A DNA stretch of 43,743 nt, taken from IMG/VR virus record IMGVR_UViG_3300013126_000067, positions 1-43,743 of that record; one strand, 5' to 3'. This stretch comes from a virus. The translations under genes were made by a program, and so were the position numbers. Positions 134 to 40,395 of this stretch are shown piece after piece (position 1 is the stretch's first letter; each line of letters starts with the position of its first letter). The notes beneath the pieces are model-generated. The model was not told the origin of the DNA. It saw only the letters and a list, made by a program, of their open reading frames with translations, and ran no database searches.

Positions 134-139
134 ATAATA

Positions 140-147
140 TATTTATT
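140..147 (-). promoter_or_regulatory. T4-like late promoter box AATAAATA
   Basis: Octamer AATAAATA on the minus strand, 6 nt before the ATG at 133. One mismatch to the T4 late consensus TATAAATA. Predicted transcription start is within 1 nt of the start codon. Confidence 0.6.
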
Positions 148-157
148 CTTTTTGTTG

Positions 158-367
158 TTAAATTCCGAATTTTGTCTTTAAAATGTCCCAAAGAAAAGTG
201 GCTAATGCTGAAATGGTTATGGCCCCGCCCACTATTTTTGTTTTAAATTTCTCAATATTGGTAAGACGGTCATGATGATCATCCATTTTGTTGATCACAT
301 GGTCCAATTTGGTTTCTATGCGAGTTACACGTTCCCGCACTTCTACAATGTCATCTTGATAAGGCAT
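158..367 (-). CDS. Small coiled-coil plus single membrane-segment protein (XhlA/holin-accessory-like)
   Basis: 69 residues. Residues 5-42 form a charged amphipathic helix with heptad-spaced I, V and L (V8, V14, I17, L21, I25, L35, I38). Residues about 45-60 (IVGGAITISALATFLW) are one hydrophobic membrane segment, followed by a short Lys-containing tail. This layout resembles XhlA-type haemolysin/holin-accessory proteins and other small phage membrane proteins, but no catalytic motif is present and lysis function is not shown. Its AATAAATA box is 15 nt upstream, farther than usual here. A spanin-like or virion-associated role is also possible. Confidence 0.65.
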   Translation of the reverse strand: MPYQDDIVEVRERVTRIETKLDHVINKMDDHHDRLTNIEKFKTKIVGGAITISALATFLWDILKTKFGI

Positions 368-382
368 ATGTGTTATTTTTAA

Positions 383-390
383 TATTTATT
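383..390 (-). promoter_or_regulatory. Late promoter box AATAAATA
   Basis: AATAAATA on the minus strand, 15 nt before the ATG at 367. The implied leader is about 10 nt, making this one of the few boxes not fused to its start codon. Confidence 0.5.
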
Positions 391-392
391 AA

Positions 393-689
393 TTACGGTG
401 CTGGAATTGTAAGGATTTTAGGTAAAAACTTAACATTTTCTGGATCAAATTGTTTCATGGTTTCAAGCTTTGGATGTATCATTTTTTGCCATACTCGACT
501 GGCATGTTCATATCTTTTTGACAAAATCTCCTGTTTTTCATCAGGAGAATATAATATATTATTTTCTATTTTGTATGTGTTTTCGATATATTTGTTCAAA
601 TTGTCGATTAAGCTTTTTAAAATATCAAATTCTTGTTCACCACCATATGGAATATTGAATTCCCTGAGAAAAGCCTGCTTGAACTTCAT
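393..689 (-). CDS. Candidate internal head protein with capsid-targeting N-terminus
   Basis: 98 residues when started at the second of two adjacent ATGs (692 and 689). A longer reading from 752 would run through a transcription terminator and is rejected. The TATAAATA box ends 5 nt before 689, placing the predicted transcription start on that ATG. The N-terminus MKFKQAFLREF resembles T4 internal-protein capsid-targeting peptides (IPIII begins MKTYQEFIAE), with an L-R-E protease site after which gp21 would cut. The mature remainder is a mixed-charge, mainly helical domain ending in PAP. It lies just downstream of the gp23 terminator. The mature domain is not recognised. Confidence 0.65.
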   Translation of the reverse strand: MKFKQAFLREFNIPYGGEQEFDILKSLIDNLNKYIENTYKIENNILYSPDEKQEILSKRYEHASRVWQKMIHPKLETMKQFDPENVKFLPKILTIPAP

Positions 690-694
690 CATAT

Positions 695-702
695 TATTTA
701 TA
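695..702 (-). promoter_or_regulatory. Late promoter box TATAAATA
   Basis: Perfect T4 late consensus on the minus strand, 2 nt before ATG 692 and 5 nt before ATG 689. It lies directly after the gp23 terminator U-tract, so this gene has its own transcription unit. Confidence 0.75.
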
Positions 703-710
703 TTTAGACA

Positions 711-743
711 AAAAAAGAAGGGAGTCGCAAGACTCCCTTCTTT
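711..743 (-). terminator. Rho-independent terminator after the gp23 gene
   Basis: Perfect 13-bp inverted repeat (714-726 with 731-743) around a 4-nt loop, followed on the minus strand by a run of T (716-711). It is 60 nt beyond the gp23 stop codon and separates the capsid operon from the small gene at 393-689. A weaker imperfect hairpin lies at about 750-770. Confidence 0.88.
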
Positions 744-802
744 AAATTTCACGGGACTTACCGTGTGAAAAAAATTTCTTTTCCACTCAGTGACTACTTT
801 TT

Positions 803-2299
803 TTAGAAGTAGACGCTTTGTGTGGCCGGTGTGAACGGCTGACCCAGACCCACGACGATAATGACGTGGTAGTACAGGTTAGCCCCGAAAATATTATCCA
901 CAACGCCGTAACGAGTCATCAATCCAACGCGAGGCGAGAAGTCGTTAGGACCAATCGTGCGCTGAACGAGGACTGGGATGTACGGGCAATAGATAATACC
1001 TGTGTCGTAATACTCCGGACCCTTGTAGCCCAGAAGGGCGTACTCGAGACGGGTTGTACGCTGCGGATTCGTGCCGGACCAAGGATATGCTCCTTGATTT
1101 TCGGCTTGAGCGTCCGTGCGTGTATCACGATACACATTGAACCGACCACCGAGATTACCGACCTTGGCCACGCCAACAGGTTGAGTGTTGACATTGCCTT
1201 GGACCGGCACCCACTGGAATTCAGGAAGCATTTCCAGAATTGCGCAAACGCGAGGTGTGGCAACGATGAAGTTGGCAGCACCACGACGGTTACGAACTGC
1301 AATACGGTTGGCTTCGATGATCAGTCTCTGGTAGAAGTCGCGATTGCGTTCAACTAGCCAGCGACCGTCTGCGGAAGCCGGGGACCATACGGAATATCCT
1401 GAACCGAAGCCTGCATTGAGGGCAACCTGAATCATACGAATGATCATCTCACGGTCGATTTCAGCCTGTAGCTCATAGCTCATAGCGTTTGTCAACTCTG
1501 TGTCGATGTCGATACCATTCATATTCTTCAAGTCTTGCTCAAGTTCGACTGACCAGCGAGCGGCGAGCCTACGTGTTCCGGCTTCGACTGCGGTTTTCTC
1601 GAAAGAAACCTCAATCTGAGGAATACGACCGGTAAGTTCGAACTGGCTCAGGATCTGGGCAACGCCCTGATCGCTACCGAGCATTGTGAATTGATCATAA
1701 TACGGCTGCGAAGGGGAAGCACCAGAGAGCTGAGAGGACGATGTACCAGTGAAGCGTGTGTCGAGGAATTGGTAACCCAATTCAGCGCCATTAGCTTGGC
1801 TGTAAGGAACGCCCAGAGAACCGTTAGCGTTGGTGCCGCTACCGTCTACGCCTGTGTTACCCAGCTGTTTGCCGAGGTACTTATAGCGAAGAGCGAAAGC
1901 AAGACCGACGGGACCGGACATGGGCTGTACGCCTACAATCTCGTTGGTGATTAGTTCGGGGAATGTACGACGAATCATCGGAATCAGAATCTTCGGCAAA
2001 CGGGCATCACCCTTGGCATAGTCGTCACCAGAGGTGATCTTGCCGGGGGGATTGAATGCCGCACCGATTGTGCTTCCACTACCGAAGACACCGCCGGAAC
2101 CGGAAGTGTTATCTTCGCTAATCATGCACCATTGTTCTTGGTTTTCCAAGAGCATGGCGGTGTTGAGACGTGTGTGATCGTCTTCGATGGCCCGGACGGA
2201 GTCCGAGGTGTAATCGAGAACGGGTGCCCACTTCTCAAGGAGGGACTTGGCGCGAGATTGATTGATGTAACTCGTGGGAGGAGCGATACGCTTACTCAT
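803..2299 (-). CDS. 23: Major capsid protein gp23
   Basis: 498 residues, close to T4 gp23 (521). The N-terminal section LLEKWAPVLDYTSD, then AMLLENQEQW, is characteristic of T4-type major head proteins, which form the hexameric lattice of the capsid. A Gly/Ser-rich stretch follows at about residues 66-80. The likely gp21 cleavage site is I60-S61-E62, just before it, matching the T4 position (after residue 65). A Shine-Dalgarno AGGAG is 10 nt from the start. The GC content and use of C-ending codons are visibly higher than in most neighbours, as expected for the most expressed gene. No TAAATA box lies in the 79-nt gap to gp22, so transcription probably enters from gp22 or beyond. A strong terminator follows. 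Confidence 0.97.
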   Translation of the reverse strand: MSKRIAPPTSYINQSRAKSLLEKWAPVLDYTSDSVRAIEDDHTRLNTAMLLENQEQWCMISEDNTSGSGGVFGSGSTIGAAFNPPGKITSGDDYAKGDARLPKILIPMIRRTFPELITNEIVGVQPMSGPVGLAFALRYKYLGKQLGNTGVDGSGTNANGSLGVPYSQANGAELGYQFLDTRFTGTSSSQLSGASPSQPYYDQFTMLGSDQGVAQILSQFELTGRIPQIEVSFEKTAVEAGTRRLAARWSVELEQDLKNMNGIDIDTELTNAMSYELQAEIDREMIIRMIQVALNAGFGSGYSVWSPASADGRWLVERNRDFYQRLIIEANRIAVRNRRGAANFIVATPRVCAILEMLPEFQWVPVQGNVNTQPVGVAKVGNLGGRFNVYRDTRTDAQAENQGAYPWSGTNPQRTTRLEYALLGYKGPEYYDTGIIYCPYIPVLVQRTIGPNDFSPRVGLMTRYGVVDNIFGANLYYHVIIVVGLGQPFTPATQSVYF

Positions 2300-2346
2300 T
2301 TATTACATTCTCCTTTATAGTAAATTCGACCGGTAGCATTGCTACC
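2300..2346 (-). promoter_or_regulatory. gp23 leader: hairpin, Shine-Dalgarno and ATG-TAA-TAA-ATG
   Basis: On the minus strand a 6-bp hairpin with a 3-nt loop (2332-2346) precedes AAAGGAGA. Next comes ATG TAA TAA directly in frame before the gp23 ATG, so a one-codon minimal ORF separates the ribosome-binding site from the real start. The hairpin might stabilise the gp23 message. Confidence 0.5.
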
Positions 2347-2378
2347 AAATAATCTCAGGCTTAAAACCTCAGAAATGG

Positions 2379-3260
2379 TTACCAGCGACTCAGTTCACTA
2401 AGATAACCGGAGGTGTTCTCGTCGCTGGAATCTTCTGCTTTTTGTTCAGTAGCAGATTCTTCTACAACAACGCGATCAACTGTTTCGGTTTGCTTAGTGG
2501 CTTCGTCGCGAATGGTTGAAAGACGCTCCTCTTCAGTTTTGTTGAAGAGTTTAAGGGTGTAATCGTAGTTCTCGTTAATGAAGGACACATCCTTATTACC
2601 CAGAAGCTTTTGGATGAACTTCTTTTTGTTCTCCGGAAGCTCCCGTGTCTTCTGTTCAAGCAGAAGAGAGGCTTGTGTCTTATTCAGTTCTTTTTCAAGA
2701 ACTACTACGCGCCCTTTAGCGCTTTCAAGCTCTTTACGAGCTTCATCTAATTGTTTCTTGCCGTCCATTACTGCCTCACGAATGCTTTCTTGGGCAATCG
2801 CGGCATCAACGGCTAGAAGATTGCGAACCTTGGCGAGAGTGTCATTGGCTTTGCGATTGGCAACAGCCTTTTTGATATCCTCGGCAGGTACTACTTCGTC
2901 AAGATAAGCTTCCAGATAGGTGCTGATATCATTGACAGTTTCTGTTTTGAAGCTTTTGGCTTCGTTGGAAAGGGCAGATTGATATTTTTCAACGATTGCC
3001 TTGAGTTTACCGCTGTGATTTTCGTCAATTGCGGCAACAACCTTGTTTAGCTTGGCAACGTGATCTTTATCGATGGCTTCAACAAGGGCTTCCAGCTTTT
3101 TGCTGTGATCTTCATCTTGTTCGGCCAGAGCTTTTTCAACGTGTATTTTTACTTTTTCGTTTACAGAAGCTTCAAAAGCTTGCTGGATTTCGTTCAGTGT
3201 TTGCTCAGTGAGAATGTCCTTTGTGGCTTCTTTGAGTACTTCTACAACGTTTTTGCTCAT
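2379..3260 (-). CDS. 22: Prohead core scaffolding protein gp22
   Basis: 293 residues (T4 gp22 is 269). Almost entirely charged amphipathic helix, with repeated segments around DHxxKLxxxVxxID at about residues 50-90 and long coiled coil through residue 220. This is typical of the internal scaffold that templates head assembly and is then degraded by gp21. Many L-x-E sites (for example L18-T-E) fit digestion by that protease. Position between gp21 and gp23 matches the T4 order. AATAAATA ends 5 nt before the ATG, so the message is predicted to be leaderless. Identification rests on composition, size and synteny more than on sequence identity. Confidence 0.85.
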   Translation of the reverse strand: MSKNVVEVLKEATKDILTEQTLNEIQQAFEASVNEKVKIHVEKALAEQDEDHSKKLEALVEAIDKDHVAKLNKVVAAIDENHSGKLKAIVEKYQSALSNEAKSFKTETVNDISTYLEAYLDEVVPAEDIKKAVANRKANDTLAKVRNLLAVDAAIAQESIREAVMDGKKQLDEARKELESAKGRVVVLEKELNKTQASLLLEQKTRELPENKKKFIQKLLGNKDVSFINENYDYTLKLFNKTEEERLSTIRDEATKQTETVDRVVVEESATEQKAEDSSDENTSGYLSELSRW

Positions 3261-3265
3261 AAAAT

Positions 3266-3273
3266 TATTTATT
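3266..3273 (-). promoter_or_regulatory. Late promoter box AATAAATA for gp22-gp23
   Basis: AATAAATA on the minus strand, 5 nt from the gp22 ATG at 3260. T4 geometry puts +1 on the A of the ATG. It is probably the main promoter for gp22 and gp23. Confidence 0.65.
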
Positions 3274-3300
3274 TAAAACCTTTCTATTTTTTTGATTTTT

Positions 3301-3450
3301 TTATTTTTTTAAATCTTTGACAGCGTTCTGGATGCGATTTTGCAATTTAATATCCATGACAGCTTGGAGCGATTTTTTGGCGCTGCTATAGTCTTTTTCA
3401 GTAAGACATTTCAGAAAATTCGTGATCAAGGATTTTTGTTTGTTGTCCAT
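3301..3450 (-). CDS. Small prohead core protein, gp67/gp68-like
   Basis: A 49-codon reading frame from ATG 3450 to TAA 3301, beginning MDNKQKSLITNFLKCL. It is a single Lys-rich amphipathic helix with the pattern Ala-x2-Ser-Leu-x2-Val-Met-x2-Lys (residues 24-34), like the small gp67/gp68 core proteins encoded between gp21 and gp22-type genes in T4 relatives. An L16-T17-E18 site fits gp21 processing. A GCTAAATA box lies 8 nt upstream. It fills the gap between gp21 and gp22 exactly. Homology is suggested by position and composition, not proven. Confidence 0.65.
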   Translation of the reverse strand: MDNKQKSLITNFLKCLTEKDYSSAKKSLQAVMDIKLQNRIQNAVKDLKK

Positions 3451-3458
3451 AATTTTTA

Positions 3459-3466
3459 TATTTAGC
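3459..3466 (-). promoter_or_regulatory. Late promoter box GCTAAATA
   Basis: GCTAAATA on the minus strand, 8 nt before the ATG at 3450. It straddles the end of gp21, whose stop codon lies at 3462-3464. Predicted leader is about 2 nt. Confidence 0.5.
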
Positions 3467-4142
3467 TTTTTGCACTGAGTTTTCTAAAGAACAGAACGAC
3501 CTGTTCCTTGAGAAAATTTTCCACATCATTTTTGGGAAGATTGGAAAGGGCGGATGTGAAGCTGTCATACACTTCTTCATATTGTCCACTTTCTTTCAAA
3601 ACAAATTGTTTGCTTTCCAAAATACCATCCACAAATGCCTTGGGGAACGACGGATCAGCAACACAGTCAATAGCAACAAGACGAAGATCTGTTACTTTAT
3701 TGGTGCCGTTACCAGCTTCTGTCAGTTTTCCGAGGGCGCGGCTGCTCATGCCAACCTTGACTCCGTCTTGAATCAAGCTTTTCACAATCATGCCCATGGG
3801 TGTGCTCAAAACTTTGCTCTTGCCGTAAAAAATATTTCCGTCCTGACGCAGTTCAGTAACCATGTGACAAACCCGTTCCAGATTCACTTCCGGTGTTTGG
3901 GGGTGATTCAATTCACCCATGCTGCGATTATTCCGAATCATTTCACTTGTGTAACGGCCCACTTCCTTGGCCATTTCTTCCAGATTGTAAATTCGGCGGT
4001 TGCGATTGGCTTGTTCCGCCATCATGTAAGGACCTTTGATATAAAGAGTAGCAGGCTGATTGGGGTTTTTTTCCTCCAATACATATTCGAAATCATCATT
4101 CGATGCGGGACGTTCAACGATTAGCTTTAGACCATCATTCAT
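3462..4142 (-). CDS. 21: Prohead core protease gp21
   Basis: 226 residues, near T4 gp21 (212). This serine protease sits in the prohead core and cleaves scaffold, capsid and internal proteins after I/L-x-E motifs before packaging. Visible family features are the GELNHP motif with the presumed catalytic His80, VGMSSRALG with the presumed catalytic Ser133 or Ser134 (spacing near T4 His85/Ser140), and VADPSFPKAFVDG near residue 160. The C-terminal helix (about 180-226) is probably the self-cleaved tail. A perfect TATAAATA is 8 nt upstream. It heads the gp21, gp68-like, gp22, gp23 series. Confidence 0.95.
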   Translation of the reverse strand: MNDGLKLIVERPASNDDFEYVLEEKNPNQPATLYIKGPYMMAEQANRNRRIYNLEEMAKEVGRYTSEMIRNNRSMGELNHPQTPEVNLERVCHMVTELRQDGNIFYGKSKVLSTPMGMIVKSLIQDGVKVGMSSRALGKLTEAGNGTNKVTDLRLVAIDCVADPSFPKAFVDGILESKQFVLKESGQYEEVYDSFTSALSNLPKNDVENFLKEQVVLFFRKLSAKS

Positions 4143-4150
4143 TGTTTAAA

Positions 4151-4158
4151 TATTTATA
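4151..4158 (-). promoter_or_regulatory. Late promoter box TATAAATA for gp21
   Basis: Perfect consensus on the minus strand, 8 nt before the gp21 ATG. Predicted leader is 2-3 nt, with no Shine-Dalgarno. Confidence 0.75.
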
Positions 4159-4166
4159 TAATTTGG

Positions 4167-4640: not shown

Positions 4641-4670
4641 GCGTCTCCTAAATTGGAATTATTTCCAAAA

Positions 4671-5675: not shown

Positions 5676-5676
5676 A

Positions 5677-6300: not shown

Positions 6301-6305
6301 ATATT

Positions 6306-6313
6306 TATTTATA
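6306..6313 (-). promoter_or_regulatory. Late promoter box TATAAATA
   Basis: Perfect consensus on the minus strand, 5 nt before ATG 6300. Predicted +1 is the A of the start codon. It probably drives the fibre gene, gp13-like and gp4. Confidence 0.8.
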
Positions 6314-6326
6314 AATTAATTGCATA

Positions 6327-11367: not shown

Positions 11368-11375
11368 TATTTATT
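11368..11375 (-). promoter_or_regulatory. Late promoter box AATAAATA
   Basis: On the minus strand, 5 nt before ATG 11362, overlapping the stop codon of the upstream gene (11374-11376). Predicted +1 is on the ATG. Confidence 0.6.
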
Positions 11376-12258
11376 AATATATCGGGGCAACACAACTAAT
11401 TGGAACCAAATAAGTTGGGTTGAATACATTAACACCTATCAACAATTCATTGTTTACAATCGTTAGCAGTGCACAATATGCACTTAAAGGAGGTATAACC
11501 GGATAAATTGGTTCTGATGTAATTGCCGGAAGAATCGTTATTGCAAATTCAAGAGGAGGAAGTTCCGGTCTTACTATCAAAGGTGCTGTGAAAAGATAAT
11601 CGCCCGTGCCCAAAACACCATAATGAATGTCTAACAAATTGGATCCTTGCAGAGTCAGCAAGTAGTTTCTTGCATCATTCAACAATTGATAATTTAATAT
11701 TTTATAATCCAAAATAGGATTAATTATACTTGGTTGGGTGCAGCTTAATTGCACAACAAAAACATCCACATAAAAATTTTCTCGATAACAGCTGATACTT
11801 GCCGTATATGATTCCAAGAAATTTTTTGTTGTTTCATAAACACCAGAAACTGTCGTTAACGTGGTAGTGTTCGGATTGACCAAATTAACATGGGTTTCAA
11901 CAGAGTTATCATTCAGATTTGCTGAAATTTTTTGAATTTTGTAAAGAGTTTGTTTAACTCCGGACAAAGAAAAGGTTATGATAACAGGCGCTGTGAACAA
12001 GAATTCATTTTGCTCATAGCGATGAATAACTATATTTTCAGAAGCTGAAAAATTGGACGTATACGTGTAAGCAGACAGAGGAAGGGCGGAAAGAGGTGGG
12101 TATGCGCTTAAGGACGAAAAAGTACCCGAACAAAGTATGTCGGTATATGTGAAACCATAACCAAAAATAGGATCTTTATATACATATCCGTCAATTGTTC
12201 CATAATTGACAAAATTTTCATCAGCACTGAGATAAATTATGGCCGTATTGTATCTCAT
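11374..12258 (-). CDS. Virion protein of unknown family; shares C-terminal module with upstream gene
   Basis: 294 residues, rich in Ser, Thr, Tyr and Leu, with beta-strand character and repeated LSAY/PLSAL motifs at about residues 49-65. The last 39 residues (PPLSAYCALLTIVNNELLIG and on to PISC) match the last 39 of the next upstream protein, with two conserved Cys near the same places. A CAGGAG Shine-Dalgarno overlaps the end of that upstream gene, one base before the start. It is probably co-transcribed from the box at 14216. Function unknown; a fibre accessory or adaptor is plausible. Confidence 0.75.
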   Translation of the reverse strand: MRYNTAIIYLSADENFVNYGTIDGYVYKDPIFGYGFTYTDILCSGTFSSLSAYPPLSALPLSAYTYTSNFSASENIVIHRYEQNEFLFTAPVIITFSLSGVKQTLYKIQKISANLNDNSVETHVNLVNPNTTTLTTVSGVYETTKNFLESYTASISCYRENFYVDVFVVQLSCTQPSIINPILDYKILNYQLLNDARNYLLTLQGSNLLDIHYGVLGTGDYLFTAPLIVRPELPPLEFAITILPAITSEPIYPVIPPLSAYCALLTIVNNELLIGVNVFNPTYLVPISCVAPIY

Positions 12259-14215: not shown

Positions 14216-14223
14216 TATTTAAT
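14216..14223 (-). promoter_or_regulatory. Late promoter box ATTAAATA
   Basis: On the minus strand, 6 nt before ATG 14209. Predicted leader is about 1 nt. Confidence 0.5.
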
Positions 14224-22325: not shown

Positions 22326-22799
22326 TTAGATGAAGTAAAATCCGCTATCTTTTAAAACTCCTTTAATACTTACGTTTGAAAGGTTAAGAGAAGGAACATT
22401 GATGCGCATGTTTATTGTGTATTGATTTTGATCATAGTCCACATTCACATTAATATTTAAAATGGACACCCGTGGTTCAAATAATTCTGTTCCTTCAAAA
22501 ATAACTTTTCCTATGAGTCTGGCATTTGCTTCGCTCAGATTGGTAAACACAAATTGAACCAGATTTAAACCATATACAGGATTAAGAATTTTTTGTCCGG
22601 GTAATGTTGTAAACAAATTAAAAAGACTGTTTTTTATAGCATCCATATCATAATCAGATTTTAAATCCTTGATTTCCAGCTTTTTATCTAATTCAGTTCC
22701 ACGGGTATAATTCTTTTCTAAATCGAAATGAATGTCCTTATAAACATGATCATCTACCTTTGGTGGTTCCTGCAGGAAGGATAGGTTTATGGTGGCCAT
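22326..22799 (-). CDS. 25: Baseplate wedge protein gp25
   Basis: 157 residues (T4 gp25 is 132). gp25 joins gp6 in the wedge core and is conserved in all contractile injection systems. The core SLFNLFTTLPGQKILNPVYG followed by a leucine-rich turn (LNLVQFVF) matches the gp25/GpW-like signature, where the E/N-P-x-x-G turn is invariant. C-terminal strands (VNVDYDQNQYTINMRINVP) complete the fold. It heads the operon gp25, gp6, PKD/NHL protein and 929-residue protein. ATTAAATA lies 10 nt upstream and faces a divergent plus-strand promoter. Confidence 0.93.
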   Translation of the reverse strand: MATINLSFLQEPPKVDDHVYKDIHFDLEKNYTRGTELDKKLEIKDLKSDYDMDAIKNSLFNLFTTLPGQKILNPVYGLNLVQFVFTNLSEANARLIGKVIFEGTELFEPRVSILNINVNVDYDQNQYTINMRINVPSLNLSNVSIKGVLKDSGFYFI

Positions 22800-22809
22800 A
22801 TTTTATAAA

Positions 22810-22817
22810 TATTTAAT
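22810..22817 (-). promoter_or_regulatory. Late promoter box ATTAAATA for gp25-gp6
   Basis: On the minus strand, 10 nt before ATG 22799. Predicted leader is about 4-5 nt. It lies 19 bp from the divergent box at 22837. Confidence 0.5.
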
Positions 22818-22836: not shown

Positions 22837-22844
22837 GATAAATA
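22837..22844 (+). promoter_or_regulatory. Late promoter box GATAAATA
   Basis: On the plus strand, 6 nt before ATG 22851, with no Shine-Dalgarno. Divergent from the gp25 promoter. Confidence 0.6.
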
Positions 22845-22850: not shown

Positions 22851-23462
22851 ATGAGAAAATTCACAAGTTTGTACGAATCATTTATTAGCCGTTATACCCG
22901 TGGTGGATTTTTGACTGGAGATATTGTCAAATTCAAAGAGGGTGCTTTGAAGAATGAATGGTTCAAAAAGCAGGGTGGTGCCATTCTTGAGAAAGCCAAA
23001 CAGTTTGCTGACAGTGGTCTTCTTATGCGGGTGAGTGCTGTAAAGACAAATCGTCCCAGTGTTCAGCCCGGTTTTGTGGAAGCAAACAATGCAGATGATT
23101 TTTATTGTGATGTGACACTTGAATTGGCACCGGGTCTTTACAAAGATTTTCTGACCCTTCCTGCTGCTATTCTTGAATATAAAGATTATTACCCCAATCT
23201 TCCGGAAGTTCCTGAAGCTTTAAAGCGTCCCAACAACAGCAACATCAAGCCGGAAGAAATTGAAGAAGAAAAGAAAAAGGGTGCAACTTATTTAAATCCA
23301 ACTTATCAAACCTCACAATCCGACAGAGGTGATGGTAAGAACACACCTTCCGAAGTTGAATTGAAAAATTCCAACGTAAAGATTCCTTCCAACCCAGCCG
23401 AAGGTGTCAAGAATCCCAGCGTCGCCTCTTATACCTACAGCTATCTCCCTAAGAACCAATAA
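22851..23462 (+). CDS. Candidate internal head/virion protein with capsid-targeting N-terminus
   Basis: 203 residues. N-terminus MRKFTSLYESFI resembles a capsid-targeting peptide with an L7-Y8-E9 cut site. Residues 14-60 read RYTRGGFLTGDIVKFKEGAL and on to LLMRVSAVK, a beta-rich core I recall in unassigned proteins of marine T4-like phages. Residues 84-130 contain ELAPGLYKDFLTLPAAILEY. The tail (135-203) is low-complexity, rich in Pro, Asn, Lys and Glu. The gene is an isolated plus-strand unit between gp25 and gp44 and overlaps the gp44 3' end by 14 nt. Function unknown. Confidence 0.75.
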   Translation: MRKFTSLYESFISRYTRGGFLTGDIVKFKEGALKNEWFKKQGGAILEKAKQFADSGLLMRVSAVKTNRPSVQPGFVEANNADDFYCDVTLELAPGLYKDFLTLPAAILEYKDYYPNLPEVPEALKRPNNSNIKPEEIEEEKKKGATYLNPTYQTSQSDRGDGKNTPSEVELKNSNVKIPSNPAEGVKNPSVASYTYSYLPKNQ

Positions 23463-24384
23463 TAGTTTGTAATTTGCAGATACAAGCGGAAAAGTTAATT
23501 TCCGGATCTAAAACCTGCTTGCTTCGGTACAAATGCTCTGAAATTTCAAGAAAACACTTCTTTCTCTTTTCGTTTTCCATATCTGAATAAAAAATAACAT
23601 CACATATTTTCTTTAAAAGATCCGGATAGTCTGTGTTAAATGCTTTTTCATTTTCTATAATATATTTTCTTATTGATACAAAATCCTCTTTTGATAATTT
23701 ATTCAAAATATTTGCTGCTACGCTTTCAAGGTTTTGAACACCCTCGTTTAAATTGATTGAAAGATCCAAAGATGTTTGCAATTCAAAAATAATTTTACGT
23801 ATGTCCGGATAAAATGCTTTTACCTTGTTTGAAATTATTGATTTGTTTTTATCATTAATTTCTATTTTTTCATTTTTAAGAATATTAACACATCGTTCCA
23901 AACAATTTTTTATGGGGGGATTGTAAACATTTATTTCTTGAACGCGGCTACGAATAGGTTCAATTACTCTGCTAATATCATTACAAGTGAAAATAAAACG
24001 GTTTGTTTCTGAATATTCCTCCAACATGTTCCGAAGTGCTCGCATTGCATCTCCTGTAAATCCATCGAATTCGTCCAATATTACAATTTGAATTGAACCG
24101 TTGCTAGGCATGAGTTGAAGAAAGTTTTTAATTTCATCTCGAACTGTATCAATTCCACGGGTATCTGATGCGTTGATATAAAGATAATCACACTCCAATT
24201 CTTTTACTATGATTTTGGCCAAAGATGTTTTTCCCATACCCTGCTTTCCATATAGTAAAAGATGGGGAATGGTCTTTTTTTGCAAACAATTCTTTACAAA
24301 TTCACGGGTTTTGTCATCCAATATTATTTCATCAAGAGTTTTGGGTCTGTATTTTTCAACCCACAGGTTATTTGCAATATTCAT
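23449..24384 (-). CDS. 44: Sliding-clamp loader large subunit gp44
   Basis: 311 residues (T4 gp44 is 319). This AAA+ ATPase, with gp62, opens and loads the gp45 clamp for replication; T4 gp45 also activates late transcription. The WVEKYRPKTLDEI start is characteristic of RFC-type loaders. Walker A is GKQGMGKT (46-53), Walker B is ILDEFD (101-106), sensor 1 is near FTCND (131-135) and the arginine finger is within SRV at 145-147. No late box precedes it and no gp62 or gp45 gene adjoins it, which is unusual for the family. Its start is 23 nt from the divergent gene at 24408. Confidence 0.95.
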   Translation of the reverse strand: MNIANNLWVEKYRPKTLDEIILDDKTREFVKNCLQKKTIPHLLLYGKQGMGKTSLAKIIVKELECDYLYINASDTRGIDTVRDEIKNFLQLMPSNGSIQIVILDEFDGFTGDAMRALRNMLEEYSETNRFIFTCNDISRVIEPIRSRVQEINVYNPPIKNCLERCVNILKNEKIEINDKNKSIISNKVKAFYPDIRKIIFELQTSLDLSINLNEGVQNLESVAANILNKLSKEDFVSIRKYIIENEKAFNTDYPDLLKKICDVIFYSDMENEKRKKCFLEISEHLYRSKQVLDPEINFSACICKLQTIIGS

Positions 24385-24391: not shown

Positions 24392-24399
24392 CGTAAATA
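24392..24399 (+). promoter_or_regulatory. Late promoter box CGTAAATA
   Basis: On the plus strand in the 23-bp gap between divergent gp44 and the gp16-like gene, 8 nt before ATG 24408. Weaker match, keeping only the TAAATA core. Confidence 0.45.
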
Positions 24400-30752: not shown

Positions 30753-30760
30753 TATTTAGT
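30753..30760 (-). promoter_or_regulatory. Late promoter box ACTAAATA
   Basis: On the minus strand, 6 nt before ATG 30746. It heads the tape-measure-like, gp48-, gp53- and gp27-like operon. Confidence 0.55.
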
Positions 30761-32423: not shown

Positions 32424-32425
32424 GT

Positions 32426-33349: not shown

Positions 33350-33360
33350 GCTATTAACCT

Positions 33361-33377
33361 CCCCTAATATTTAGGGG
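33361..33377 (-). promoter_or_regulatory. Hairpin containing late box and gp54-like ribosome-binding site
   Basis: Perfect 7-bp stem with a 3-nt loop between gp19 and the gp54-like gene. The minus-strand 5' arm and loop contain CCTAAATA (33368-33375) and the 3' arm contains GGGG of the GGGGAGG site. Transcripts starting at the predicted +1 (33362) would lack the 5' arm and begin with the ribosome-binding site. Read-through mRNA would fold it away. Confidence 0.6.
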
Positions 33378-33383
33378 AATATA

Positions 33384-33935
33384 TTAACTTTGGTAGGTAC
33401 GACGGAAATATTGATAAGCAACGGTCACTGTGAATGTTACAAACTCACCACCGTTGGTAATATCATATTCCAGCGGGCCGAGGGTACGAGGAGATACCCC
33501 GACCAGCTGGTATTGTGCAACGCGGTTCAGCTGATTGTTCAACTGAACAAGATCAATGACGGATGTTTGCTTGGCGGCAAAATAATTACCGGTGCTTGTG
33601 ACATCATCAAACACGTCCCGTGTCCAATTCTGGAACTTTTGATAAAGCTGAGTGCTTTGATCACAATAGAATTCCATAGAATATGCTTCGCTGCCAGTAT
33701 ATTTGGCACTGCCCGGGATGTGGAAATCCAAACCCATATAAGGAACAGTCACTTCAGTGATTTCACGGCCGGGAAGTGTTGCTGTACGAACATAAACCAG
33801 ATCATCTTCATTCCAGACTTGGCTGCTGCTGTCGCCGGGATTGATGTTGATTACACGGAAATTAAATTTACGAGCGAAATCGCGTTCAGTTACTACCCGG
33901 TAGAAATTTTGAATTGTCTGTTGTGTGTCGGCCAT
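33384..33935 (-). CDS. 19: Tail tube protein gp19
   Basis: 183 residues (T4 gp19 is 163). It polymerises into the inner tube of the contractile tail. The ERDFARKFNFRVININPG start, VRTATLPGREITEVTVPYMG, DFHIPGSAKYTGSEAYSMEF and final TVTVAYQYFRR are classic for T4-like tubes. GC is somewhat higher than in neighbouring genes, consistent with abundant expression. AATAAATA lies 7 nt before the ATG, without a Shine-Dalgarno. A Dps-like gene separates it from the sheath gene, a departure from the T4 gp18-gp19 adjacency. Confidence 0.95.
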   Translation of the reverse strand: MADTQQTIQNFYRVVTERDFARKFNFRVININPGDSSSQVWNEDDLVYVRTATLPGREITEVTVPYMGLDFHIPGSAKYTGSEAYSMEFYCDQSTQLYQKFQNWTRDVFDDVTSTGNYFAAKQTSVIDLVQLNNQLNRVAQYQLVGVSPRTLGPLEYDITNGGEFVTFTVTVAYQYFRRTYQS

Positions 33936-33942
33936 ATAATAT

Positions 33943-33950
33943 TATTTATT
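33943..33950 (-). promoter_or_regulatory. Late promoter box AATAAATA for gp19
   Basis: On the minus strand, 7 nt before ATG 33935, overlapping the end of the Dps-like gene. Predicted leader is about 1-2 nt. Confidence 0.6.
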
Positions 33951-34350
33951 CTAAAGTTAACAAATACTTTAATTTATTTAGATCTGCAACGATTTCTTCC
34001 ACAATGTTTTGGGCATCGGTATCGTTTGGATTGAGTATTTTGCAATTTTGTCCCCCTAGAATTTCTAAGTACTGGTTAATTTTTTGCAAAATATTTTCAG
34101 GCGAATGAGGAATAAGCTGAAGATTCAGAGGTTTATATTCATACTTACGATATCGTCCCAGAAGAGTTTCCACCAGCTTATCGAATGATTTTGCCAGATC
34201 TTTTCCTATTTTATCAAATGCTTCATGCTGGGCAAAACTAAAGGTTTGCCAATGAAACAGTTTGAATTGTGCGCTACAGTCCAGTGCCAATGTGATTATG
34301 GCTGTAGGATCGTAAACCGGTTGTTGATAAACTTTAATTACCTTTAACAC
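33946..34350 (-). CDS. Dps/ferritin-like protein
   Basis: 134 residues from GTG 34350. The frame opens upstream to ATG 34386, but that start lies inside a terminator hairpin, and TATAAATA ends 5 nt before the GTG. Residues 29-64 read FKLFHWQTFSFAQHEAFDKI and on to DKLVETLLG. The spacing of H42, D46, D57 and E61 equals that of the E. coli Dps ferroxidase residues H63, D67, D78 and E82, and H33-W34 corresponds to the HW of the first ligand. The C-terminal helices are less Dps-like. It may bind iron or be a scaffold using the fold. The phage family DUF5856 may be the best match. Confidence 0.8.
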   Translation of the reverse strand: MLKVIKVYQQPVYDPTAIITLALDCSAQFKLFHWQTFSFAQHEAFDKIGKDLAKSFDKLVETLLGRYRKYEYKPLNLQLIPHSPENILQKINQYLEILGGQNCKILNPNDTDAQNIVEEIVADLNKLKYLLTLE

Positions 34351-34355
34351 AAGTA

Positions 34356-34363
34356 TATTTATA
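34356..34363 (-). promoter_or_regulatory. Late promoter box TATAAATA for the Dps-like gene
   Basis: Perfect consensus on the minus strand, 5 nt before GTG 34350 and immediately after the gp18 terminator. Predicted +1 is the G of GTG. Confidence 0.75.
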
Positions 34364-34396
34364 ATAAAACACCCCACTTTCAACAAGTGGGGTGTT
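34360..34396 (-). terminator. Rho-independent terminator after gp18
   Basis: 12-bp perfect stem (34368-34379 with 34385-34396) and 5-nt loop, followed on the minus strand by TTTTATTAT. It lies 22 nt after the gp18 stop and isolates the sheath transcript from the Dps-like gene. Confidence 0.88.
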
Positions 34397-34417
34397 CTAA
34401 TATTTTATATTATTTGA

Positions 34418-36787: not shown

Positions 36788-36793
36788 ATAAAT

Positions 36794-36801
36794 TATTTAT
36801 A
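36794..36801 (-). promoter_or_regulatory. Late promoter box TATAAATA for gp18
   Basis: Perfect consensus on the minus strand, 6 nt before ATG 36787. Predicted leader is about 1 nt. Confidence 0.78.
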
Positions 36802-36828
36802 TTTTTTCGGAACTTTTTTTGCCTTTAT

Positions 36829-37398
36829 TTATATCAAAGTGGCAATGAACTGGGAAAAGCTGAATGTAAACGAGCTTTCTGCTTCGCTACTGTCCCGGTA
36901 ATTGTAATTAATTCCACCCAATTCAACAGGTATGGCTCCGGTATAATCAAACTTTATTTTGTTATTATTATATTCATCTAACCCATAAACGGTTATGGTT
37001 GTGCTATAATCCCCTAATTTCGGGTTAGTATTAGGATTTCTGGCGTTGGGTATGCTAAGTTTTTCGTCATTAAGGAAGTTTAACCAAGAATAAATGAACC
37101 AATAATTATTAAACAAATTGTCCACGGTAAAATTAACCGCCACATTTTCATAACTGGGCCGTTCCAAACTGGAAGTTTTGAGTACCTGACCACCATATTT
37201 GGTTTCAACTTCAGGAACCTTGATAGTGGGCACTACAATACCATAAACTGAAAACTGAAAAGATTGCAGATTAACACCCCGATTATTTCTTTCATATTGG
37301 TTCAGATAAGGTTTCAAAATATCAGGAGGTGTTACCACCATGATAAATTTGTCGCGACGTGTCTTGTTGAGCATCGCCTGATCGTAAAAAGCAGCCAT
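36829..37398 (-). CDS. Second tail-tube-fold protein
   Basis: 189 residues from ATG 37398. An in-frame ATG at 37422 would overlap gp17 and lies upstream of the TTTAAATA box that ends 5 nt before 37398. The core DKFIMVVTPPDILKPY, SFQFSVYGIVVPTIKVPEVE, LKTSSLERPSYENVAVNFTV and a final FTFSFSQFIA strand resemble gp19-type tube subunits. It could be a tube paralogue, a tail-completion protein (gp3/gp15 role) or a head-tail adaptor built on the tube fold. It lies between gp17 and gp18, where T4 has no tube gene. Confidence 0.7.
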   Translation of the reverse strand: MAAFYDQAMLNKTRRDKFIMVVTPPDILKPYLNQYERNNRGVNLQSFQFSVYGIVVPTIKVPEVETKYGGQVLKTSSLERPSYENVAVNFTVDNLFNNYWFIYSWLNFLNDEKLSIPNARNPNTNPKLGDYSTTITVYGLDEYNNNKIKFDYTGAIPVELGGINYNYRDSSEAESSFTFSFSQFIATLI

Positions 37399-37403
37399 AG
37401 TAT

Positions 37404-37411
37404 TATTTAAA
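37404..37411 (-). promoter_or_regulatory. Late promoter box TTTAAATA
   Basis: On the minus strand, 5 nt before ATG 37398, overlapping the gp17 stop codon. Predicted +1 on the ATG. Confidence 0.5.
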
Positions 37412-39071
37412 GAACTTTCCAACCTTCTTTATCCAAATATTCCAATTCAACATCCCGTTCATCCCTTTCGGAATTTGAAAACATTACGGGCATGCTGGGT
37501 GTTTGATCTTCCCGGCCGCCAAATTGATAAATTATATTTTCATTTCGTTTGAAAGGAATAATGCTGCTGGGTCGATTATTGGTGTCCCGGCCCGTCACTT
37601 CAAAATATTTCTCAACCAATTCATCATTTAAAATAAGAAGTGCCATGGCCATGCTCATGACACAATCATCAAAATTATTTGCACCTTTTCGTGCAGCCCA
37701 TGTTCCGTTCGGATAGCGGGTAAAGTTTTTCAATTCATCCAGTGTGATCATGTCCTTGAAAACAATAGCCCGAAGTTCATTGATCCAATATCGCATGTTG
37801 ATTACTGCCTGATATTTTGTGTTTGTATTTGTGAATATTCCGGGCTTTTCAAAAGTTTTGCCATGGGAATAGCTGATGATTGGGTCATAATTATAATTTT
37901 CAAAAAGAGCATCCACCACCTGTGCTCCGCAATTGTTCCGCTCAATTAACAGAGGAGGATTGCCCCACTGAGCCAATATTTCCAATAATTTTGTTGTAAA
38001 ATTATAGGGAGTAATGGTGTTGTCCCGGAAACATGCAACCTGACGAATGGCGCTCAGATCTGCCAAATCAAATATCTGCACCACGCTGCTGGCTTGTCCC
38101 ACACCTTCAGCCACGTCTACACCGGCCACATATACTCCGTTCTTTTGGGGTTGTTCCCATATCTTGTATTTGCCTTCATCAAAAATAAAAAGAGGACTGC
38201 TGCAACCGCTTTTATATTTCTCGTAATCGTCCCCGTTCAGGGCAGATTCACCTTCCTGAAGAAATTCATTTCCAAATTCCTGATCAAAAAGCTCCCGACT
38301 ACCCAGACTTTTGATTGTATCATTCTTCCATTTTTCATCCCGACCCGGCACTTCATGCCAATCCACCCGCTCAGTTTTCCAGTTGTTTTTGCCTTCTATG
38401 CCATCTGTGTATAACTGATAAAAAAGATTGCCGGTCCCGTTTGGAGTGCTGGCCACAAAGATTTTGCTTTTTTTACTGGAAGATATAATGGGATACACAG
38501 CAGACCAAAACGTGTCCACCATGTTATTGTCAATATGCGCCAACTCGTCAATGACCAACACGTTGACAGAACTGCCTCGGCCTGCGTCGGATGACGTGGT
38601 GCTGATGCTAATACGACTGCCATTGGCCAAACCCATGGCAGTTTTACCATATTCTGTCACTCCCGGTTTCAAATAATTCGGAAGATTTTCATAGGCAAGA
38701 CGCACTCGGGCAAAAATTTCTTTGGCAGTTTCCTCTTTATTTGCCACCAAAAGTATTCTTTGATCTTCGTTGAAACATGCCAGCCAAAGACAGTAAATGG
38801 TCATGACGGTTGTTTTTCCTGCCTGACGACTGGACAACAAACATACAAAACGGTTGTCTCGCAAGCTGCGTAAAATTCTTTTTTGATAGGGATGTAATTT
38901 AATTTTGATGCGACCCACATCCAGATTGATGATGTAAAAATGATTTTCGGCAAAGTGCAGAATGTTTTGTTTGCACTTGGCAACTTCTTTGATCATCTCG
39001 GCGGAATATTCGAATTCAGCCTGAGAAGTGGGAAGATTTGGATTGCCCAAATATCTATCATTTGGTTTCAT
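37407..39071 (-). CDS. 17: Terminase large subunit gp17
   Basis: 554 residues (T4 gp17 is 610). This packaging motor has an N-terminal ATPase and a C-terminal headful nuclease. Walker A is SSRQAGKTT (80-88), Walker B is VLVIDE (171-176) with catalytic E176, followed by coupling motif ASTPNGTG. The nuclease begins at GVDVAEG (first Asp), and the final acidic pair lies in NNFDDCVMSMAMA. No TAAATA box was found just upstream on this strand; it starts 23 nt from a divergent gene and may use another promoter class. The gp16 candidate lies far away at 24408. Confidence 0.97.
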   Translation of the reverse strand: MKPNDRYLGNPNLPTSQAEFEYSAEMIKEVAKCKQNILHFAENHFYIINLDVGRIKIKLHPYQKRILRSLRDNRFVCLLSSRQAGKTTVMTIYCLWLACFNEDQRILLVANKEETAKEIFARVRLAYENLPNYLKPGVTEYGKTAMGLANGSRISISTTSSDAGRGSSVNVLVIDELAHIDNNMVDTFWSAVYPIISSSKKSKIFVASTPNGTGNLFYQLYTDGIEGKNNWKTERVDWHEVPGRDEKWKNDTIKSLGSRELFDQEFGNEFLQEGESALNGDDYEKYKSGCSSPLFIFDEGKYKIWEQPQKNGVYVAGVDVAEGVGQASSVVQIFDLADLSAIRQVACFRDNTITPYNFTTKLLEILAQWGNPPLLIERNNCGAQVVDALFENYNYDPIISYSHGKTFEKPGIFTNTNTKYQAVINMRYWINELRAIVFKDMITLDELKNFTRYPNGTWAARKGANNFDDCVMSMAMALLILNDELVEKYFEVTGRDTNNRPSSIIPFKRNENIIYQFGGREDQTPSMPVMFSNSERDERDVELEYLDKEGWKVL

Positions 39072-39075
39072 TCTG

Positions 39076-39083
39076 TATAAATA
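39076..39083 (+). promoter_or_regulatory. Late promoter box TATAAATA
   Basis: Perfect consensus on the plus strand, 11 nt before ATG 39095, in the 23-bp gap with divergent gp17. Predicted leader is 6 nt. Confidence 0.7.
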
Positions 39084-39094
39084 CTTAACAGCGT

Positions 39095-39700
39095 ATGAGC
39101 CAAAACAATAAATATATAAAGAAATACGGTATGCCTAAAAGTCGCGTAAAAACACTGGAAGAGATTGGAGCAGTCTATCACAAGATGCTTCTGGAAACCC
39201 CTGTAGTTCAACAGGAAACAGTTATTGAAGAGAAGAAGCAAAAGAAATTGGCGGATCCTAAAGCCAAATTTGGAACCAAACCCGGCAAAGGCGGCGTTCA
39301 AGCTTTCGAACTTGTTAAAGATAAAAAGCCTGTTTTGGAACCTAAACTTAAAGATTTTGCACATAAAGACAGTGGCCCGGATCTGAAACAACTCAGGGAA
39401 CCAATTGATCCTAAAGTGAAGAAATTTACCAAAGATAACTACTTCGAACCAGAACAACTTAGCAGCGCCAATGAAAGTGTTGTTAACACAAAGAATGTGG
39501 AACTTATTGCAGACGAATTAAAGAAAGAAAACAAGAATGAAGCCTATGAACGTCTTTGTGAATACAAGACACTCTGGGGAAAAGATAATTTTGTAAACCT
39601 TCTCACAGTGGCAGCCGTCAATGGCCATACCGAAGCACTTGAAGAATTTTTCACTTTTGTAAATAAAAATACAAAAAATAAAAAGGAGAACAATAAATAA
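39095..39700 (+). CDS. Unrecognised Lys-rich protein, probable head-associated
   Basis: 201 residues with many Lys and Glu. The N-terminal 35 residues (KYIKKYGMPKSRVKTLEEIG) are basic helix. Residues 50-115 are low-complexity and basic (KKQKKLADPKAKFGTKPGKG). The C-terminal part (about 125-185) is a helical pair including NEAYERLCEYKTLWG and VNLLTVAAVNGHTEALEEFF, the latter reminiscent of one ankyrin-type helix pair. An L32-L33-E34 site is present but not at a typical targeting-peptide position. Context next to the acidic protein and gp14 suggests a head or packaging role. The family is unknown. Confidence 0.7.
   Translation: MSQNNKYIKKYGMPKSRVKTLEEIGAVYHKMLLETPVVQQETVIEEKKQKKLADPKAKFGTKPGKGGVQAFELVKDKKPVLEPKLKDFAHKDSGPDLKQLREPIDPKVKKFTKDNYFEPEQLSSANESVVNTKNVELIADELKKENKNEAYERLCEYKTLWGKDNFVNLLTVAAVNGHTEALEEFFTFVNKNTKNKKENNK
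39692..39699 (+). promoter_or_regulatory. Late promoter box AATAAATA
   Basis: On the plus strand, overlapping the last codons of the preceding gene, 6 nt before ATG 39706. An AAGGAG lies farther upstream (about 17 nt from the ATG), too distant for standard initiation and outside the predicted late transcript. Confidence 0.6.
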
Positions 39701-39705
39701 ATTAT

Positions 39706-40335
39706 ATGAGTAACTTCGATAAACTATATGAAGCCGTGATGTCCGAGGACGACGTTGAACTTGGTATCACCGGTGCTCAATCTGGCGCAGCTGAAGTCGC
39801 CCCAGCCGCCACCGGTGAAGAACAAGAGTTGACTCCTAAAGAGCATCTCGCCAAGGCAATCGAGCTTCTGCAAAAGCTACAAAGCCTCGACCTTATCCCC
39901 GATCAAGCCGGTGGTGAGGAAGACGCTGAAGCAGCTTCCGACGAAGATTACGAAGCAGCTTCTGATGAAGACGCCGAAGAAAAAGGCGAAGACGAAAGCG
40001 AAGATGAGGATTCCGAAGAAATCGCCACTGAAGAAGTGGAAGCCGAAGATATCGGACACGCCCTCGTCAATGCTAAAAAGGGTCAGGAACTGACAAAAGT
40101 TTCCTCTGGCAGCAACAAGGTTGCCAGCACAGTATCCTCTCTTGCCAAGGGTGGCAAGGGCGGTGATGCCAAGGTAACTGACAAGGTAGGCACTGAAGGC
40201 GAAAAGGGCCACGCACTTGTCGGATCTGGTGTCAAAGGTGGAGCACCCACAAGCACAAAGGGCAAAGCCAACGTCGTGTCCAGCGTGATCAAGGGTGGTG
40301 GAAAAGGCGATCAAGACTTTTTCCAGTCCAACTGA
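39706..40335 (+). CDS. Acidic, Gly-rich candidate internal head protein
   Basis: 209 residues. N-terminus MSNFDKLYEAVM has an L7-Y8-E9 site, then Ala, as in T4 internal-protein targeting peptides. Residues about 65-110 are almost pure Asp, Glu, Ala and Ser with two repeated A-A-S-D-E-D units. Residues 115-205 have repeated GHALV, SSLAKGGKGG, GHALVGSGVKGG and SSVIKGGGKG units and end in DQDFFQSN. Codon use is C-rich like gp23, implying very high expression, and a strong terminator follows. It could be an internal protein, a scaffold component or a decoration protein. No known family. Confidence 0.75.
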   Translation: MSNFDKLYEAVMSEDDVELGITGAQSGAAEVAPAATGEEQELTPKEHLAKAIELLQKLQSLDLIPDQAGGEEDAEAASDEDYEAASDEDAEEKGEDESEDEDSEEIATEEVEAEDIGHALVNAKKGQELTKVSSGSNKVASTVSSLAKGGKGGDAKVTDKVGTEGEKGHALVGSGVKGGAPTSTKGKANVVSSVIKGGGKGDQDFFQSN

Positions 40336-40352
40336 TTAAAAAAAATATAAAG

Positions 40353-40386
40353 AAAACCCCCGTTGATAAGACGGGGGTTTTTTTTT
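40353..40386 (+). terminator. Rho-independent terminator
   Basis: 7-bp GC-rich stem (40357-40363 with 40371-40377), extended by A-T pairs, with a 7-nt loop and nine Ts, 18 nt after the acidic-protein stop. It separates that gene from the nucleotidyltransferase. Confidence 0.92.
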
Positions 40387-40387
40387 G

Positions 40388-40395
40388 ACTAAATA
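40388..40395 (+). promoter_or_regulatory. Late promoter box ACTAAATA
   Basis: On the plus strand directly after the terminator T-run and 5 nt before ATG 40401. Predicted +1 is the A of the ATG. Confidence 0.6.

Follow-up and report, generated by a model that had tools for sequence, protein, structure and literature searches.

The window analysed here, meaning the whole 43,743-nucleotide (nt) stretch of DNA, is the record IMGVR_UViG_3300013126_000067 of an uncultivated T4-like virus, and the element in question is a TAAATA box that resembles the T4 late promoter and ends a few nucleotides before many of its start codons. In the window, PHROG matches placed the major capsid protein (gp23) at 803-2299 and also identified the gp21 protease, a gp4-type head closure protein, Ad2 (gp13), a gp14-type head-closure protein, the baseplate wedge proteins gp6 and gp25, the gp44 clamp loader, tape measure, hub and tube proteins, the gp18 sheath and the gp17 large terminase. 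Judged by this gene content, with T4-type capsid, terminase, sheath, tube and clamp loader all present, it is a virus with T4-like myovirus traits. The capsid protein is approximately 33% identical to those of named phages (best full-length matches among those listed), and at least 80 IMG/VR loci carry a capsid protein of 70-94% identity. The 17 rows of this clade were separated by a branch from the cyanophages, pelagiphages and T4 in a 40-row capsid tree, albeit with long branches and an unsure deep placement. Six long relatives of 119-230 kb, G001-G006 (loci L087-L124 and L151-L165), were read whole; together with shorter records, the clade set comprised 14 records.

The 30 nt upstream of 41 chosen starts in the window were inspected. 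The preliminary description of this DNA had claimed that a late box ends 5-8 nt before a list of starts on both strands, and TAAATA was indeed found at this distance (hereafter the gap) at all 17 of the named starts, which are also the only such cases among the 41. The gap was 5 nt at seven starts, 6 nt at six, 7 nt at one and 8 nt at three. When the same upstream sequences were shuffled 2000 times with preservation of dinucleotides, a comparison of the kind that the preliminary description had proposed, the number of starts with a gap of 5-8 nt averaged 0.66 and never exceeded 4. Since TAAATA is, if anything, under-represented over the entire window (42 observed, 54.6 expected), the signal lies in its position. 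The full octamer TATAAATA, which had been described as frequent, is present at only 5 of the 17 starts (689, 4142, 6300, 34350 and 36787), so that "often" was generous. As a caveat, the start used at 689, 11362, 24408, 34350 and 37398 is not the first in-frame start codon; automatic calls of open reading frames, with all ATG codons within the initial 150 nt of each frame considered, gave 10 window sites at gaps 5-7. The boxes, and a gene without a box that served as early-class control, are as follows.

140-145, minus strand: late box TAAATA, gap 6 to the start at 133; the gene runs off the window
695-702, minus strand: late box TATAAATA, gap 5 to ATG 689
3266-3271, minus strand: late box, gap 5 to ATG 3260; gene in the gp22 position
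3459-3464, minus strand: late box, gap 8 to ATG 3450; open reading frame of 49 amino acids
4151-4158, minus strand: late box TATAAATA, gap 8 to ATG 4142, gp21 protease
6306-6313, minus strand: late box TATAAATA, gap 5 to ATG 6300
11368-11373, minus strand: late box, gap 5 to ATG 11362; overlaps or abuts the end of the frame 11374-12258
14216-14221, minus strand: late box, gap 6 to ATG 14209
22810-22815, minus strand: late box, gap 10 before the gp25 start at 22799
22839-22844, plus strand: late box, gap 6 to ATG 22851
23449-24384, minus strand: gp44 clamp loader, without box; early-class control
24394-24399, plus strand: late box, gap 8 to ATG 24408
30753-30758, minus strand: late box, gap 6 to ATG 30746, tape-measure-like
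33943-33948, minus strand: late box, gap 7 to ATG 33935, tail tube, gp19-like
34356-34363, minus strand: late box TATAAATA, gap 5 to GTG 34350
36794-36801, minus strand: late box TATAAATA, gap 6 to ATG 36787, gp18 sheath
37404-37409, minus strand: late box, gap 5 to ATG 37398, tail-tube-like in PHROGs
39694-39699, plus strand: late box, gap 6 to ATG 39706
40390-40395, plus strand: late box, gap 5 to ATG 40401

The open frame of the gene at 689 starts at GTG 752, and a further ATG at 692 lies 2 nt from the box at 695-702. The late-box gene at 33946-34350 on the minus strand, within the structural cluster, matches phrog_858, a starvation-inducible transcriptional regulator (E-value 1e-14).

The same spacing recurs throughout the long relatives. 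TAAATA was found at gaps 5-7 from an ATG at 38, 49, 33, 38, 39 and 23 sites in G001 to G006, respectively, compared to 9, 6, 9, 9, 8 and 9 sites over the wider range of gaps 18-32. Gap 5 alone accounted for 21, 32, 20, 22, 22 and 9 of these sites and gap 6 for 15, 13, 7, 14, 10 and 10, and gaps 0-4 were nearly empty except in G001, so that the distribution begins abruptly at gap 5 in five of the six records. In T4, syn9, P-SSM2 and DSL-LC02, in contrast, 0, 0, 5 and 1 sites were found at gaps 5-7 and 31, 21, 39 and 27 at gaps 18-32, with the most frequent box distance at 28 nt in T4, approximately 20-27 nt in syn9 and DSL-LC02, and 20-25 nt in P-SSM2. Summed over the 14 clade records, a pattern search gave 412 matches at gaps 5-7 versus 133 for the reversed-pattern control, and 296 versus 410 at gaps 20-28; T4 behaved in the opposite way (16 versus 13 at gaps 5-7 and 68 versus 47 at gaps 20-28). 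A chance origin of the spacing was considered and is ruled out by the dinucleotide shuffles and the reversed-pattern controls. The same pattern search, applied to phiM9, Cr30, RHph_N34, vB_Psh_XG4, C48C1, PC14, BUCT-ZZ01 and Vibrio K485, gave no excess over the reversed control at gaps 5-7 in any of these phages.

In order to relate the boxes to gene classes, orthologues of T4 genes were assigned by profiles in the window and the six long relatives (seven records), and the same start rule, the best-placed ATG or GTG within 150 nt, was applied to late and early genes. Of the T4 queries, 18 of the 37 late ones and 5 of the 14 early ones had no clade match, and the matches of gp24 and gp54 fell on frames assigned to better-scoring families. 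A box at gap 5-8 preceded 41 of 93 late orthologues, but none of the 48 replication or early ones (genes 43, 44, 45, 46, 47, 55, 61, uvsW and uvsY; p 8e-10). The gene uvsW, counted as early here, is late in T4; without it, the early count is 0/42. The absence of a box at gp44 (start 24384), as stated in the preliminary description, was confirmed. Judged from the sequence, the boxes are T4-type late promoters that mark late genes.

The late genes gp4, gp6, gp14 and gp23 lack a box in the window and all six long relatives, and we infer from gene order that they are operon-internal. A wider orthologue set was compiled in which whole records stood in for six loci, query length was limited to 300 residues, and orthologues with a match beginning after residue 12 were left out. 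Among the matches listed there, a box was present at the start of gp23 in 0/80 and of gp4 in 4/45 orthologues. The opposite holds for gp21: among the matches listed, 47 of 52 loci have a box at gap 4-9, 34 of them at gap 5, and the bases above the box vary freely. Boxes were also retained in orthologues of the tail tube gene at 33935 (gap 5-9 in 6/6), of the gene at 39706 (gap 5 in 4/4) and of gp25, where the gap is 5 in five and 7 in one of six orthologues, compared to 10 in the window. For gp18, the box lies at 28, 39, 34 and 37 nt in T4, syn9, P-SSM2 and DSL-LC02, respectively, together with a Shine-Dalgarno (SD) sequence, whereas in 6 of 7 clade records it lies 6-8 nt away and the SD sequence is missing.

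The T4 late promoter is described as an 8-bp box with its first base at -13 (PMC2988020), which makes the sixth base below the box (box+6) the first transcribed base (+1). Purines peak at exactly this position in T4 and cyanophage leader sites, with 93 of 118 sites compared to 58-70 at the other seven positions, and the peak thus coincides with +1 of T4 (PMC2988020). In the clade, C was found at box+6 in 0/230 sites, where sites at gap 5 have A by construction. Since a gap of 5 nt puts box+6 on the A of the AUG, leaders of 0-3 nt are predicted for gaps 5-8. With regard to the machinery, a search for gp55, gp33 and gp45 had been suggested beforehand. Homologues of gp55 were present in all six long relatives (the two that were scanned were confirmed by phrog_234, E-values 2.7e-27 and 9.8e-25), and so were those of gp45, chained from G001 (phrog_223, E-value 8e-12); the gp45 proteins of G003 and G005 have no PHROG match, yet are homologous to that of G001, as are those of G002, G004 and G006. 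The Pfam gp45 C-domain was detected in 0/14 clade records, in a search that gave no match anywhere, and neither gp55 nor gp45 was among the scanned proteins of the window, which is a 43.7-kb fragment. For gp33, neither phmmer from T4 nor a profile of five homologues gave a significant match in the clade; the family is short and weakly conserved. The gp55 proteins of the clade have an N-terminal extension and a C-terminus that differs from that of T4. With gp55 kept, its ends altered and gp33 not found, promoter recognition looks conserved, and the activation step may differ.

Box genes were described beforehand as mostly lacking SD sites and the operon-internal genes at gp4 (4640), 8081 and 12258 as having them, and both statements held. 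An SD-like core within 20 nt was found at 0/17 box starts of the window and at 8/24 other starts (Fisher p 0.013), the remaining 16 of these 24 likewise having none. Among late-box genes, 9 of 294 had an SD core, versus 128 of 1044 other genes. Given that start codons were chosen by rule and that open reading frames called from sequence only are often over-extended, the true starts could be downstream in-frame codons with SD sites of their own, which would leave the boxes at an ordinary leader distance. An ATG or GTG preceded by an SD sequence within the next 25 codons was, however, found in just 3 of 230 box genes and in 37 of 972 others. Moreover, gp21 and the gp13-like protein are conserved from the box-proximal ATG, with variation mostly at codon position 3, and an in-frame stop lies just upstream in 33 of 35 distinct gp21 sequences (within 30 nt) and 22 of 25 of the gp13-like gene. 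We therefore give downstream starts next to no probability.

Letter permutations of TAAATA, which were meant as a control, turned out not to be a plain one. One permutation, ATAATA, was itself common at gaps 5-7, with 6-26 sites in each long relative, and overlap with TAAATA does not account for them; examination of this excess led to promoters of the TATAAT type. TATAAT occurs at gap 6 before ATG at 21, 9, 4, 14, 4 and 4 sites in G001 to G006, compared to 0-1 in HTVC008M, Mosig, syn9 and T4 and 2 in P-SSM2. Without any requirement for a -35 element, TTGA emerged 17 nt above 89 TATAAT sites at gaps 5-8 (T 72, T 62, G 61, A 60). A search for sigma70-type promoters, defined by a TTG-containing -35 element, a spacer of 16-18 nt and a -10 element matching at least 5 of 6 positions, gave 29, 11, 8, 16, 10 and 7 sites at gap 6 in G001 to G006, and 1, 0, 1, 0, 1 and 0 at gap 5. 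Summed over the six relatives, 99 sites lay at gaps 5-7 versus 34 over gaps 15-35, and a control with scrambled -35 element gave 22 at gaps 5-7; in six comparison phages, the respective numbers were 7 (6 of them at gap 6) and 58. Smaller groups were present at gap 9 in G001 (8 sites) and G004 (7 sites), and an SD core was found in 1 of the 99 genes. The -10 box of sigma70 promoters ends at -7, and gap 6 thus sets the +1 of the sigma70-type promoters on the A of the AUG. The late boxes peak at gap 5 and the sigma70-type promoters at gap 6, each at its own start distance, which argues that the register is set by the 5' end of the RNA and not by the ribosome. This two-class register is the strongest sequence argument for such an origin of the spacing. 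Judged by the spacing of their sigma70-type promoters, the relatives appear to have leaderless early-type genes too, and leaderless expression in the long relatives probably extends beyond the late genes.

We also considered that the boxes are late promoters but that most late mRNAs have their 5' ends farther up, owing to a second promoter or to read-through, and carry ordinary leaders, with the start-proximal box being of minor importance. Second full octamers indeed lie at 36826-36833 before 36787 and at 22804-22811 before 22851, i.e. 38-39 nt before these starts, and late genes are clustered, which makes read-through likely. On the other hand, the 14 clade records show no excess over the reversed control at gaps 20-28, the rarity of SD sequences in late-box genes means that no canonical ribosome site would be gained from a longer leader, and the sharp lower edges at gap 5 for the late boxes and gap 6 for the sigma70-type promoters fit starts on the AUG. 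Upstream starts as the main source of late mRNA are, hence, very unlikely in our view.

The Pelagibacter myophages HTVC008M and Mosig, which stand apart from the window clade in the capsid tree, have a late box at exactly gap 5 in 11 and 6 genes, respectively, and none at gap 6. Two of the gap-5 starts of HTVC008M, 49760 and 75830, are annotated starts, and they are the two that lie in the stretch whose annotation was compared. Over 80 HTVC008M-like loci, 68 sites were found at gap 5, one at gap 4 and none at gap 6, next to a broad set at 14-35 nt; these counts pool homologous genes of related loci and are not independent. In Mosig, gaps 5-7 taken together were hardly above the control (21 and 19), gap 5 being above it (11 versus 3). 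For HTVC008M and Mosig, gap 5 is a minority mode, as numerous late boxes are found 15-32 nt before the start, in many cases accompanied by an SD sequence, and unlike G001-G006 they lack a sigma70-type peak at gap 6 (1 and 3 sites). An SD-like core was present in 2 of the 11 HTVC008M box genes, and non-box genes of HTVC008M and Mosig had an SD sequence in 66/138 and 71/148 cases. Given this strong SD use elsewhere, leaderless and leader-bearing late genes appear to exist side by side in pelagiphages. Late-promoter detection as performed for cyanophages has been reported to give unsatisfactory results in pelagimyophages (PMC7029224).

These counts bear on a further explanation, namely that the motif acts chiefly in translation, as an A/T-rich initiation signal independent of SD like that of Bacteroidota, rather than as a promoter that sets the 5' end. 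The Kozak-like sequences of F. johnsoniae are reportedly A-rich. Their use by this bacterium (PMC6847099) speaks for such an element, as do the non-box genes of the long relatives, which are A-rich upstream and have few SD sites, in G006 none above the control region (4/96 versus 6/96). A ribosomal signal should, however, also serve replication and early genes, none of which has the box, and the motif is the T4 late box. Furthermore, TATAAT comes with a -35 element 17 nt up and its own gap of 6 nt, neither of which a ribosome needs, and HTVC008M-like loci use gap 5 to the exclusion of gap 6. We regard a translation element as scarcely credible.

The preliminary description had inferred that late translation is systematically leaderless or near-leaderless and coupled to T4-type late promoters; this passed the sequence-level tests, i.e. 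recurrence, late specificity, presence of gp55 and gp45, the purine peak and the sigma70 spacing. Leaderless or near-leaderless mRNAs are thus very probably produced from the T4-type late promoters and, in the relatives, also from sigma70-type promoters, as predicted from promoter positions. In this lineage, the late promoter would have shifted to a position directly before the start codon. The late boxes would be read by the host RNA polymerase with a gp55-type sigma factor, and the first transcribed base would be the A of the AUG at gap 5 and a base 1-3 nt before it at gaps 6-8, so that the first gene of many late units would be translated from a leaderless or near-leaderless mRNA. Other genes may rely on an SD sequence (gp23 in particular), on coupling or on a mechanism that was not recognised. 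The sigma70-type promoters of the long relatives would be set likewise, at their own distance. That the whole expression programme, early and late, runs on leaderless mRNAs through sigma70 and gp55 promoters in register with the AUG is a reading that we favour, albeit with much less confidence.

Several observations weigh against leaderless late expression. At 52 of the 93 late orthologues, the start has no box. G001 has 12 sites at gap 4, where a start at box+6 would remove the A of the AUG, in conflict with strict T4 geometry, and its gp18 retains a box at 45 nt together with an SD sequence. The peak of G006 is broader, the short record G013 shows no excess at gaps 5-7 (4 versus 7 in the control) and G008 and G011 show little (14 versus 8 and 21 versus 12). 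The second octamers at 22851 and 36787 would yield leaders of about 33 nt. SD use is weak also in non-box genes of the long relatives, and in G006 box and non-box genes are indistinguishable in this respect (2/28 versus 6/120). To these we add the failure to find gp33 in the clade, and the window, which consists mostly of structural genes, has no sigma70-type site at gaps 5-7.

Compared with the T4 late system (gp55, gp33, gp45; TATAAATA at -13 to -6), the clade shares the hexamer core, the late gene classes, gp55 and gp45 homologues and the absence of a box before the early orthologues tested. It differs in that 5-8 nt, rather than about 18-32 nt, separate the box from the start, in that SD sequences are rare in box genes, and in that the two commonest letters before TAAATA are AA instead of TA. 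The late promoters of cyanophages (Kyanoviridae, e.g. syn9 and P-SSM2) are described as NATAAATA (PMC2984593). They contain the same box as the clade, but mostly 18-32 nt upstream, and syn9 has none at gaps 3-19. Four sites of P-SSM2 are at exactly gap 5; the raw pattern there equals the control (6 and 6), and the use of gap 5 is therefore not established for this phage. Leaderless mRNAs are known from mycobacteria and other bacteria (PMC4633059) and resemble the clade prediction in having the 5' end at the start codon and no SD sequence; here, by contrast, a large part of a temporal class would become leaderless through a late sigma factor that the phage encodes. Phage transcripts are said in passing to be often leaderless (PMC5312081), and in the titles and abstract openings listed from the open-access literature, leaderless late mRNAs of a T4-like phage are not described.

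A search of 84,980 prokaryote genomes for a host gave 17 pattern matches in a scan with the capsid protein and 113 in a scan with an alignment of 18 capsids, none of them a relative. WhiB was found in 0/14 clade records, which speaks weakly against actinobacteria. Whole-genome promoter counts were mixed, with sigma70-type promoters at 6/1, 8/1 and 13/3 versus control in G001, G002 and HTVC008M and Bacteroidota-type promoters at 8/2 versus control in the window. The TTG-17-TATAAT promoters of the relatives point away from Bacteroidota, given the promoter type of that phylum. Genes for the ribosomal protein bS21 were detected in 6 of the 14 clade records (G001-G005 and G007; loci L181-L186), five of them over the cut-off, and lie within about 3 kb of the gp45 homologue in G002-G005; bS21 is also annotated in HTVC008M and Mosig. 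Phage bS21 has been proposed to favour late phage mRNAs in Bacteroidetes, and the word "leaderless" is absent from that paper (PMC9723584). A link of bS21 with leaderless translation is conjecture, and a whole programme on leaderless mRNAs in which phage bS21 retunes ribosomes toward them appears rather unlikely. An initiator tRNA as part of the system was considered and rejected, since most of the tRNA(CAU) genes of the relatives that were examined resemble tRNA-Ile2. Only G001 has an initiator-like tRNA-Met (CAU), at L113:14333-14406 on the minus strand, with U29-A41 and U1-G72 by manual reading. Two further observations concern single relatives. At G006:35834-39897, the large-terminase profile matches two adjacent frames (E-values 4e-63 and 3e-17), perhaps due to an inserted element or a frame break, and a call at L151:283-688 (minus strand) in G005 resembles a transfer-messenger RNA, its tag peptide being unusually long; it is possibly false.

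The capsid gene itself is preceded by a different kind of element.

2300-2390, minus strand: gp22-gp23 spacer, without late box at gp23; hairpins, GGTCGA and the SD sequence AAAGGAG before gp23 (2299)

Over the window and the relatives L003-L082, a hairpin GAGG-n-CCUGA is present in this spacer in 46 of 68 distinct sequences, some with a second hairpin. Its innermost pair is Watson-Crick in 38 of these 46, with four pair types, where the hairpins were chosen by regular expression. The hairpin is followed by GGTCGA (GTCGA in 61 of 80, among the matches listed) and often by an SD sequence before the capsid gene. In L027, L038, L049 and L050, as well as in L048, L052 and L060, another hairpin (AGCGCTC...GAGTGCT-like or AGTACA...TGTACT-like) replaces the GGTCGA form. 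Rfam gave no match in the spacer, which is a candidate for a new cis-acting RNA of the capsid gene.

Late transcription of T4 is a textbook system in which late promoters lie well upstream of the ribosome sites. In the viruses described here, that box seems to set both where transcription of late genes begins and where the ribosome enters, the sigma70-type promoters appear to do likewise, and the pelagiphages of abundant ocean bacteria appear to do so in part. If true, such genes would bypass SD recognition, which would change how they and their promoters should be called, and the arrangement would point to a host that translates leaderless mRNAs well. It would also provide a natural test of the protein yield from leaderless mRNAs, and HTVC008M on HTCC1062 offers a cultured system in which the late half of the proposal may be tested.

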